A DNA stretch of 64,000 nucleotides from Deltaproteobacteria bacterium (GTDB lineage Bacteria > Desulfobacterota > Binatia > HRBIN30 > JACQVA1), in NCBI GenBank assembly GCA_016210005.1, contig JACQVA010000256.1:1-64000 (forward strand), read 5' to 3'. Position 1 is the stretch's first letter, and each line of letters opens with the position of its first letter. The notes under the pieces were generated by a model. The model was not told where the DNA came from and searched no databases. It saw only the letters and a program-made list of their open reading frames with translations. The position numbers were made by a program, and so were the translations under genes. Below, one piece after another: positions 1-48,450 of this stretch.

Positions 1-168
1 CGCGCTTCGTAGTAGACCAGCTTGTCAACGCCGTACTTGGCCGAAAAACCCTCCACTACCTTGCTCTAATGCTGCCACACCCGCGTTGCCAGCTGTGAAG
101 TCACCCCAATGTACAGCGTGCCGTTTCGTTTGCTGGCCAGGATGTAAACGCAGAACTAGCTTGTCCGT
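1..168 (-). pseudogene. GIY-YIG nuclease remnant, start lost and in-frame stop
   Basis: Read on the minus strand the remnant gives FCVYILASKRNGTLYIGVTS, the GIY-YIG core (YIL...YIG), then a stop TAG at 66-68 just after VWQH. The same frame then continues with SKVVEGFSAKYGVDK and LVYYEAR. Three lesions are visible by comparison with the copy at 48271-48335. The ATG is ACG (168-166), one base is inserted near residue 4, and a codon has become TAG. GIY-YIG proteins of this small kind (about 90-100 aa) are predicted single-domain endonucleases. This copy cannot make one. The rest of the gene lies before position 1. Confidence 0.8.
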
Positions 169-256
169 AGCGCCAAACGCCAAACTGGATTCCCGCTTTC
201 GCGGGAATGACGGCCATAACACCGAACCACGTTACCCACAAATTTGTCGCGCACCC
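1..256 (-). mobile_element. GIY-YIG-encoding repeat element, copy 1 (cut by window start)
   Basis: About 120 bp (roughly 138-256) is nearly identical to 48306-48439. It differs by a few substitutions, one extra base in this copy and a 16-bp duplication in the other. The shared part includes a perfect hairpin, ATTCCCGC-TTTC-GCGGGAAT, at 189-208. It ends at 244-256 with the inverted-repeat end that reads GGGTGCGCGACAAAT on the minus strand. The left end lies outside the window. The hairpin is the source of the widespread spurious PAKAGIQ/FPRKRESS peptides in database proteins (general knowledge). In this copy the right end overlaps the last codons of the neighbouring methyltransferase. Confidence 0.7.
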
Positions 257-46060: not shown

Positions 46061-47956
46061 CTAGCGTGCACGTAGTTTGTCGAGAATGGCCTGCCGGATC
46101 ATCGCCGGGCGCAAGGGCTCGCCCGGCACACGCGTCCAGCAGTCCACGTCCACCAAGGTCGCGGCGCGCAGCAGCCAGGCCAACTGGCCGCGGCGGCGGT
46201 TCTCTTCGCTGATGTGCGGCTGGCCGAGTTCGTCGCTGTAGTTGATCTCGACGGTCATGACGGCATTGAAGCGGCTGAAGATGTTCTTCAAGCCCGGCTC
46301 CAGCGGCGAGAGGAAGCGCAGGTGGAGGGCCGAGACCGCGGCGCCCTCGGCGCGGGCGCGATCGACCGCCTCTTCAATCGCCCCCTTGGTGCTGCCCCAG
46401 CCGACCACCAGCAGATCGCCGGTCTCATCGCCGTGCAGCTTGGGCGGGTGCAGCATCTGGCTGAGCGCGGCCAGCTTGCGGCTGCGCATCATGCAGCCGC
46501 GCTGGTGCTCCTCGGGGTTGTAGGCCACCTTGCTGGCCTCGTCGTGGGAAAGGCCGGTGGCGATGAACATGCCGCCGGGTTGTCCCGGAATGAAACGGCG
46601 CGACAAGCCTTGCGCGTCCCACTCGTAGGGGCGCGTTCCCTCCGGCACCGGGCTGAGGTCGGGCGCAGCCGCGGGCCAACGGGTATCGAGTTGGGGCCGC
46701 GGGAACGGCTGCACCCCGGTGGCCAGGTTGGCGTCCGACAGCACCATCACCACGCAGCGAAAGGCCTCGGCGATCCGGCGCGCGGTGATCATGGAATGAA
46801 AGCACTCCTCGATCGTCGCCGGTGCCAGTACCACGTGCGGGGCGTCGCCCGGCTGCCCGAAGATCGCCGCCAGCAGGTCGGATTGCTCGACCTTGGTCGG
46901 CAGTCCCGTGCTCGGACCGCCACGCTGCACGTCGACCAGGACCAAGGGCGTCTCGGTCATCACCGCCAGCCCGATGAACTCGGTCTTCAATGCCAAGCCG
47001 GGGCCGGAGGTGATCGTGAAGGCGACCTTACCGGCATAGGAGGCGCCGATGGCGACGCCGGCAGCGGCGATCTCGTCCTCGGCTTGATGGACCACGCCGC
47101 CGAATTTCTCGAACACGTCCCCGAGGTAATGCGAGGCCGAGGTCGCCGGCGTGATCGGGTACATGGCACACAGGTCCATGCCCGCGGCGATTGCGCCCAG
47201 CGCGATCGCCTGGTTCCCGTTCATCACCACCATGGCGCGCTCCGCCTTGGGGGCGGCCACTTTGATGCGGAAGTCGAGATTCTCTTCGGCCCATTGATGT
47301 CCGAGCTGGAACAGATCGAGGTTGGTTTTGAGCACCGACTCGGCCTTCTTGCGGAACTGCTGAGCGATCTGATCGCGGATCAGATCGAGGTCGCGCCCGT
47401 AGATGCACGCCAGCATGCCGAGGGCGAACATGTTCTTGCCCTTGCGCGGGTTGTCGATCACCGTCAGGCACTGCTCTTCCATCGGCACCGGAACGAGGCG
47501 AAAGCCGCGGCCGCTGATTTCCCGCATCGCCTCGTCCCACTCCTTGCGGATGTCCGGGTCGTCGTGCGTTGCCCACATGTTTTCCAGCAGGATGATCGCA
47601 TCATCGGCCAAGGCGTTGAGGCGAACACGTTGCAGCAGGGCCTGCTCGTTGAAGGCGACGATCAGATCGGCGGCGTCGCCCCAATTGGTCACCGTCCCGG
47701 CGCCGATGCGGATGCGGTTGCCGCTGGCGCTCTGGGGCTGGCGCGGGGGCGGCTGGATTTCGGCGGGGATGATCTCCACCGTCCAGACCCCATTGCCCAT
47801 TTTGGCGGAGACCGTCCCGAAAATCTGGCCGCAGCGCTGTGCGCCTTCGCCGGAGTCGGAGACGATCTCGACCGTGTGACCAGGCAGCTCGAGGAGGTTA
47901 CTAACGACCGCGGTTGGCGCCTCGGGCGCGGCGGTTGCAGCAGCAGTAGTGGTCAT
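46061..47956 (-). CDS. korA: 2-oxoacid:ferredoxin oxidoreductase subunit alpha (gamma-alpha fusion)
   Basis: 631 aa. The N-terminal gamma-like domain (about 1-215; GEGAQRCGQIFGTV) is fused to the alpha domain (MYPITPATSASHYLG near 265, TSGPGLALKTEFIGLAVM, VDVQRGGPSTGLPTKVEQSDL). This is the standard layout of two-subunit Kor enzymes. The C-terminal part (VVGWGSTKGAIEEAVD) completes the fold. It is the first gene of a four-gene minus-strand operon (korA, korB, unknown, PFOR), with a candidate promoter about 100 nt upstream. Confidence 0.94.
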   Translation of the reverse strand: MTTTAAATAAPEAPTAVVSNLLELPGHTVEIVSDSGEGAQRCGQIFGTVSAKMGNGVWTVEIIPAEIQPPPRQPQSASGNRIRIGAGTVTNWGDAADLIVAFNEQALLQRVRLNALADDAIILLENMWATHDDPDIRKEWDEAMREISGRGFRLVPVPMEEQCLTVIDNPRKGKNMFALGMLACIYGRDLDLIRDQIAQQFRKKAESVLKTNLDLFQLGHQWAEENLDFRIKVAAPKAERAMVVMNGNQAIALGAIAAGMDLCAMYPITPATSASHYLGDVFEKFGGVVHQAEDEIAAAGVAIGASYAGKVAFTITSGPGLALKTEFIGLAVMTETPLVLVDVQRGGPSTGLPTKVEQSDLLAAIFGQPGDAPHVVLAPATIEECFHSMITARRIAEAFRCVVMVLSDANLATGVQPFPRPQLDTRWPAAAPDLSPVPEGTRPYEWDAQGLSRRFIPGQPGGMFIATGLSHDEASKVAYNPEEHQRGCMMRSRKLAALSQMLHPPKLHGDETGDLLVVGWGSTKGAIEEAVDRARAEGAAVSALHLRFLSPLEPGLKNIFSRFNAVMTVEINYSDELGQPHISEENRRRGQLAWLLRAATLVDVDCWTRVPGEPLRPAMIRQAILDKLRAR

Positions 47957-48090: not shown

Positions 48091-48250
48091 GCGCAATTAC
48101 CGCCGGTTGCAGGCGCCGGCCGCGGGCAGCGCCGGGCAGCATGACCAAGGTGCAGCAGCTAGGCGAGCGCGTTGAGCTGACCCTTATAGCAGCCAAGACA
48201 TGACGAAAGTCACATCCGTGGACATCTTTGTCAAGCGAAACCGGCGCCGG

Positions 48251-48263
48251 CCTGCGAGCGGGG
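48251..48263 (+). repeat. left direct repeat, probable target-site duplication
   Basis: CCTGCGAGCGGGG, identical to 48438-48450 on the other side of the repeat element. The last bases overlap the inverted-repeat end, so the true duplication is about 7-12 bp. Confidence 0.7.
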
Positions 48264-48439
48264 TGTGCGACAGATCATACACGATCTCGTCATAGAGGTC
48301 TCCGCCAGGATGTAAACGCAGAACTGCTTGTCCATAGCGCCAAACGCCAAACTGGATTCCCGCTTTCGCGGGAATGACGGCCATAACGAATGACGGCCAT
48401 AACGCCGAACCACGTTACCCACAATCTGTCGCGCACCCC
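48260..48439 (-). mobile_element. GIY-YIG repeat element, copy 2 (internally deleted, MITE-like)
   Basis: 180 bp bounded by 16-bp inverted repeats with one mismatch. The left end is GGGGTGTGCGACAGAT (48260-48275) and the right end, read on the minus strand, is GGGGTGCGCGACAGAT (48439-48424). A 13-bp direct repeat flanks it. Inside are the ATTCCCGC hairpin (48356-48375), a 16-bp tandem duplication (48372-48403) and both ends of a GIY-YIG gene joined by deletion. It matches copy 1 at the window start closely. It lies 66 bp before the SDR ATG and may carry or disrupt that gene's promoter. Confidence 0.75.
48271..48335 (-). pseudogene. GIY-YIG nuclease gene with internal deletion
   Basis: From ATG 48335 it reads MDKQFCVYILA, the N-terminus of the same protein as copy 1. 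It then jumps, out of frame, to DLYDEIV (48300-48271), which matches the usual C-terminal DLYDEI ending of small GIY-YIG proteins. By family length about 75-80 codons are missing. A short shared CTGGC-like sequence at the junction would fit deletion between microhomologies. No catalytic core remains. Confidence 0.7.
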
Positions 48440-48450
48440 TGCGAGCGGGG
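48438..48450 (+). repeat. right direct repeat, probable target-site duplication
   Basis: CCTGCGAGCGGGG, exact match to 48251-48263, directly abutting the right inverted repeat of the element. Confidence 0.7.

Follow-up and report, generated by a model that had tools for sequence, protein, structure and literature searches.

A GIY-YIG-bearing repeat in an uncultured Binatia genome as a probable deleted copy of a non-autonomous ISKra4-type element

The 178-bp element and its surroundings

The window, i.e., the whole stretch of 64,000 nucleotides of a Deltaproteobacteria bacterium (contig JACQVA010000256.1) that was analyzed, carries at positions 48261-48438 a 178-bp element bounded by the inverted ends GGGTGTGCGAC.../...GTCGCGCACCC. 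Its limits follow from comparing it with the 27 other complete copies and from a 9-bp target duplication. The features of this locus, together with those of a second copy at the start of the contig, are as follows.

48261..48438, no strand: whole element, probably an internally deleted copy of an ISKra4-type MITE family (comparison with 27 complete copies and target duplication)
48252..48260, no strand: target-site duplication, left copy, CTGCGAGCG (flank comparison)
48439..48447, no strand: target-site duplication, right copy, CTGCGAGCG (flank comparison)
48261..48275, plus strand: left terminal inverted repeat, outer 15 bp only (GGGTGTGCGACAGAT), the inner half of full copies being deleted (comparison with copies)
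48411..48438, minus strand: complete right terminal inverted repeat (CACGTTACCCACAATCTGTCGCGCACCC), lacking one base of the family sequence (comparison with copies)
48304..48335, minus strand: 5′ end of the GIY-YIG gene, ATG at 48335-48333, MDKQFCVYILA (sequence and family comparison)
48279..48302, minus strand: 3′ end of the GIY-YIG gene (DLYDEIV region), without its stop codon and with the middle of the gene deleted (comparison with gene ends of other copies)
48356..48375, no strand: hairpin with an 8-bp stem, ATTCCCGC-TTTC-GCGGGAAT, dRS3-like (ATTCCC-N8-GGGAAT), part of the GIY-YIG module (exact pattern search)
48372..48403, plus strand: local tandem duplication, 2 x 16-bp GAATGACGGCCATAAC (repeat scan)
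48229..48234, minus strand: TTGACA, -35-like box lying 26 bp beyond the left end and directed toward an oxidoreductase-like gene (flank scan; putative promoter with a weak -10 box)
1..256, no strand: second copy in the window (L048), cut by the contig start, with a GIY-YIG fragment, a hairpin at 189-208 and a right end at 229-256 (pattern and profile search)

A preliminary description of this DNA had delimited a 180-bp unit with 16-bp inverted ends, flanked by a 13-bp perfect direct repeat. A repeat scan of the window recovered the inverted pair with its single mismatch (48260-48275 / 48424-48439) as well as the direct repeat around 48251 and 48438. The pair is therefore real, and it is the boundaries that were one base off, as copy-to-copy alignment shifts them to give 178 bp. 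Likewise, the duplication exists but its true length is 9 bp (CTGCGAGCG), the rest of the 13-bp repeat being matches where the terminal C and GGG of the element agree with its flanks. As had been described, the unit retains both ends of a GIY-YIG gene, which lie on the minus strand, and the internal 8-bp-stem hairpin is exact, a pattern for which 0.05 sites are expected per window and two were found (the other at 189). Small duplications adjoining the hairpin, like the two GAATGACGGCCATAAC units here, also occur in several other copies. Outside the left end, the gene faced by the exact TTGACA (offset 26) is 2-oxoacid:ferredoxin oxidoreductase-like and starts at 47956 on the minus strand.

A multicopy family and its passenger genes

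The source assembly (G000) amounts to 5.9 Mb in 268 contigs and is 97.6% complete. The end pattern has 273 matches in this genome, against 0-1 for a reversed control pattern; 1.46 Mb (fetched stretches and the window) were examined copy by copy, and the remaining three quarters of the genome by pattern and profile only. Within the 1.46 Mb lie 139 candidate ends. The 28 complete copies all measure 90-630 bp, and the family, whose ends are 28-30 bp long, comprises about 136 or more elements in this one genome. All 28 complete copies are too short to hold an ISKra4 transposase gene, so that the transposase is absent between the ends, as in MITEs and mobile insertion cassettes. The MITE-like deleted derivatives proposed in the preliminary description are borne out, and the longer GIY-YIG units of about 400-450 bp that it predicted were found as forms of 430-460 bp (ends GGGGTGTGCGACAAATCTGTGGGTAACGTG / CACGTTACCCACAAATTTGTCGCGCACCCC). 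The longest GIY-YIG version (488 bp) encloses a hairpin, the gene and a second hairpin between its ends; most long copies are without the 3′ part of the gene and the second hairpin. A solo end was also observed at L064 1495-1530 (G000:C12:144349), followed by unrelated sequence and with no partner end within 1.5 kb.

A 9-bp duplication matching at seven or more of nine positions flanks 16 of the 28 complete copies (10 perfect, 6 with 7-8 of 9), whereas the flanks of different copies reach 7/9 in 4 of 756 control comparisons. Exact flank matching peaks at length 9 only, no other length being enriched. Inverted ends combined with a flank duplication of at least 8/9 define 12 elements in 1.46 Mb against none with any of six shuffled end patterns, which, with the 273 ends, bears out the earlier suggestion of a true transposition product. 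The other 12 complete copies have no duplication (at most 3 of 9 flank positions match); we assume that these may reflect misassembly at repeats or recombination between copies, and 77 of 128 ends run into the end of a contig or stretch. Element size was considered as a reason for the missing duplications and had no significant effect (Fisher 0.43). Joining the empty sites restored no coding frame convincingly, which lends no support to gene-splitting insertions.

Two types of passenger genes were identified between family ends. The first is the GIY-YIG gene, for which the Pfam profile has 47 matches in the genome, mostly fragments, and whose consensus protein retains the GIY-YIG domain. Among 76 distinct fragments, dN/dS is about 1.05 and silent, replacement and stop changes amount to 23/74/3%, against 24/71/5% expected without selection, both being rough counts against a hand-built consensus that ignore shared ancestry; the same 76 fragments hold 21 frame-breaking gaps, and one of them spans the gene. 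From these sequence comparisons, the GIY-YIG copies look like a neutrally evolving, decaying passenger and not like an engine. The second passenger is carried by a 630-bp element (L188, G000:C13:12259-12888) with the same ends and a perfect duplication, CTCCCGCTC, in which a GxxExxY / PDDEXK_3 gene (E 2.6e-40) takes the place of the GIY-YIG gene. The same ends also bound gene-free palindromic elements of about 240 bp in two Acidobacteria gp11 assemblies, several of them with 9-bp duplications, e.g., CTGCTGACC and TATAAGAAC. One element of the Acidobacteria genome G423 (L160 1097-1526; 430 bp, perfect 9-bp duplication CTGCTGACC) contains extra sequence with CCCTCTCC/GGAGAGGG-type repeats inside the usual palindromic content. 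Conservation of the nuclease across mobile copies is thus not what is seen, given L188 and the Acidobacteria elements without GIY-YIG and the dN/dS of about 1.05.

These contents bear directly on the idea of the preliminary description that the GIY-YIG nuclease could be the mobilizing enzyme, in which case it would cleave both the ends and the target, and deleted derivatives would be moved in trans. In favor of such a role, GIY-YIG is the sole gene in most long copies and the consensus protein keeps its domain; however, elements without this gene have the same ends and 9-bp duplications (L188, the Acidobacteria elements and the G555 insertion sequence described below), the family ends are attached to ISKra4 transposase genes, and relatives of the nuclease in Neisseria, Azospirillum, Shinella, Photobacterium, and Aeromonas are devoid of family ends beside them (at least 6 mismatches of 22). 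Because the same ends and duplications bound other contents and the nuclease copies are neutral, it is very improbable that the nuclease mobilizes the element, an idea largely refuted by L188 and G555.

Insertion sites and the link to ISKra4 transposases

Family ends were found next to ISKra4 genes in two lineages. On the one hand, a search of the Acidobacteria gp11 phylum uncovered in G555 an insertion sequence with ends GGGTGTGCGACAAATTTGTGGGT.. that are near-identical to the MITE ends, part of an ISKra4 transposase (NF033572, 5.6e-38), a DUF6788 partner (1.7e-28) and a target duplication, CAGGGGCAC, read across two contigs; a complete ISKra4 transposase of 436 aa lies between related ends in the same genome (L300). 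On the other hand, same-class relatives hold ISKra4 genes (L337, L334, and L315) with ends just beyond them that match the MITE ends at 25/27 positions, where the chance minimum is 9 mismatches per 3 kb. The source genome itself has one complete ISKra4 element (C12:9810-11646, 1837 bp, 308 bits) with a perfect duplication, GGTTGCTAG, and with ends that have diverged from the MITE ends (GGGCGCACGACAGG..). No ISKra4 copy with exactly the MITE ends was found in this genome, and a multi-copy transposase donor may be absent from the binned assembly.

Prokaryotic Mutator-like elements have inverted ends of 18-39 bp and target duplications of 8-9 bp (PMC3942029). The 28-30 bp ends shared with ISKra4 insertion sequences and the 9-bp duplications reported here fall within both ranges, which also hold for ISKra4-type (p-MULT 4) elements. 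The exact end core has three matches in GTDB contigs, two of which lead to the Acidobacteria elements; within the same family, order and class, a single isolated match turned up, with 2 mismatches and no partner end, and 395 sampled genomes of the phylum gave, with 3 mismatches allowed, scattered single matches at about chance level. Viral contigs gave no match and plasmids short, chance-like matches only, and no close relative carrying these loci was found.

The insertion sites provide a second line of evidence. Of 128 flanks, 18 have TTGACA (one mismatch at most) at offset 26-27, where chance would give about 0.7 (Poisson 2e-19); the background is 0.36 per offset and the peak was picked after scanning all positions, making this a post-hoc p, yet 74 positions cannot yield 1e-19. 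As many as 12.5% of flanks, but 0.5% of random stretches, contain promoter-like pairs. All 18 boxes are at the same type of end, namely that farther from the start of the gene (18/74 vs 0/51, Fisher 4e-5), so that insertions are oriented, with the -35 box 26-27 bp from one end only, although the two ends are nearly symmetric. For the Acidobacteria elements the offset peaks at 16-17 (8/42 flanks, p 2e-7), and for the resident complete ISKra4 element the box is at offset 17. TnGBS/ISLre2 and several ISKra4 elements are reported to insert upstream of sigma-A promoters at a constant distance of 13-17 bp (PMC3942029). The family likewise inserts upstream of sigma-A/70 promoters, at 26-27 bp instead of the published 13-17 bp. 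Compared with the 16-17 bp of the Acidobacteria elements and the 17 bp of the resident ISKra4, the offset is greater by roughly one turn of the helix, which suggests that promoter recognition by the transposase takes place on the same helical face but one turn further out.

Considering that its ends are common to ISKra4 insertion sequences and that its insertions are oriented and spaced from promoters, the unit in the window is in all likelihood a non-autonomous ISKra4-type element (MITE or mobile insertion cassette) that has undergone an internal deletion and carries a GIY-YIG-plus-hairpin passenger, and an ISKra4 transposase very probably moves the family. An ISKra4-family transposase (a Mutator-like DDE enzyme), presumably supplied in trans, would recognize the 28-30 bp ends and insert the element with a 9-bp duplication, preferentially in one orientation and leaving 26-27 bp between one end and the -35 box of a sigma-70 promoter. 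Caught between the ends, the GIY-YIG gene and its flanking hairpins would form a module that hitchhikes and decays, and internal deletions like that of the window copy would arise repeatedly. We infer that an ISKra4 copy is, or formerly was, active in the source genome.

Another transposase family with similar ends, such as IS256, could in principle mobilize the element, IS256 having similar ends and 8-9 bp duplications. Both IS256 and ISKra4 are placed among the Mutator-like families, yet insertions are reported to be random for IS256 and close to promoters for ISKra4, the latter fitting the insertions found here (PMC3942029). Moreover, the IS256 transposase profile (PF00872) has no match in the source genome and the ends occur on ISKra4 genes, which together make IS256 a highly improbable source of mobility.

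The hairpin module and the place of the family among known systems

A Neisseria gonorrhoeae locus, which we take to be a member of the Ssn (GIY-YIG single-strand nuclease) family, shares 59% identity with the GIY-YIG protein over 97% of the query, and annotated GIY-YIG homologues, this locus included, adjoin hairpins of the ATTCCC-N8-GGGAAT type. On an Azospirillum lipoferum plasmid (NC_016623.1 255506-255799; L308 1501-1794), the GIY-YIG gene sits between sufB and sufC with ATCCCCGC-type hairpin pairs on both sides. A second repeat family of the source genome bears the ATTCCC-N8-GGGAAT hairpin in different surroundings (CTACTATGGCCGAAAGTCTTG...), often at contig ends (L199 8750 and 13150; L183 14085; L244 14686; L213 53). 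The hairpin is a module of its own, since it is also present in this other family.

That the copies are scattered palindromic (REP/dRS3-like) repeats with incidental inverted ends, spread by recombination or a REP-associated transposase, is the least probable reading of all and can be set aside: the hairpin is indeed a dRS3-like palindrome shared with another repeat family, but the copies have precise 28-30 bp ends and 9-bp duplications in common, and a family end is found no more than 600 bp away from 84 of 103 hairpins, the opposite of copies that share the hairpin without the inverted ends, an outcome that the earlier description had named as speaking against its reading.

The non-autonomous ISKra4-type element resembles the ISKra4 group of p-MULT 4 (PMC3942029) in ends that start with GGG and measure 28-30 bp, in its 9-bp duplication, in insertion upstream of promoters and in ends that are also found on ISKra4 elements; it differs in being without a transposase, in its distance to the -35 box (26-27 vs 13-17 bp) and in having the promoter on one side only. 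With bacterial MITEs and mobile insertion cassettes it has in common a small size, a high copy number, inverted ends with a duplication, no transposase and, sometimes, a passenger gene, whereas the passenger here is a small hairpin-flanked nuclease gene (GIY-YIG) or a PD-(D/E)XK gene, in about 136 or more copies per genome. Neisseria-type modules have a homologous nuclease with ATTCCC-N8-GGGAAT-type hairpins alongside but no ISKra4 ends; here the module is enclosed in such ends and decaying. The preliminary description had taken this for an unfamiliar type of element; its ends and insertion-site rule resemble those of ISKra4. The kind of mobile element is already known; its passenger, copy number and altered distance to the promoter are new. 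No publication on a GIY-YIG-carrying MITE was found in the literature searched.

The family accounts for a heavy repeat load and many contig breaks in an uncultured genome, and it ties non-autonomous elements of two lineages to one DDE transposase family. It is also conceivable, if improbable, that the GIY-YIG nuclease, made from a single intact master copy, nicks its own hairpins while DNA is replicated or taken up and thereby raises the rate of transposition or recombination of ISKra4-ended elements; if true, a nuclease that cuts hairpins would be acting as helper to a transposase that seeks out promoters. The family also illustrates how a nuclease gene with hairpins on either side could be spread by a transposase to which it is unrelated.
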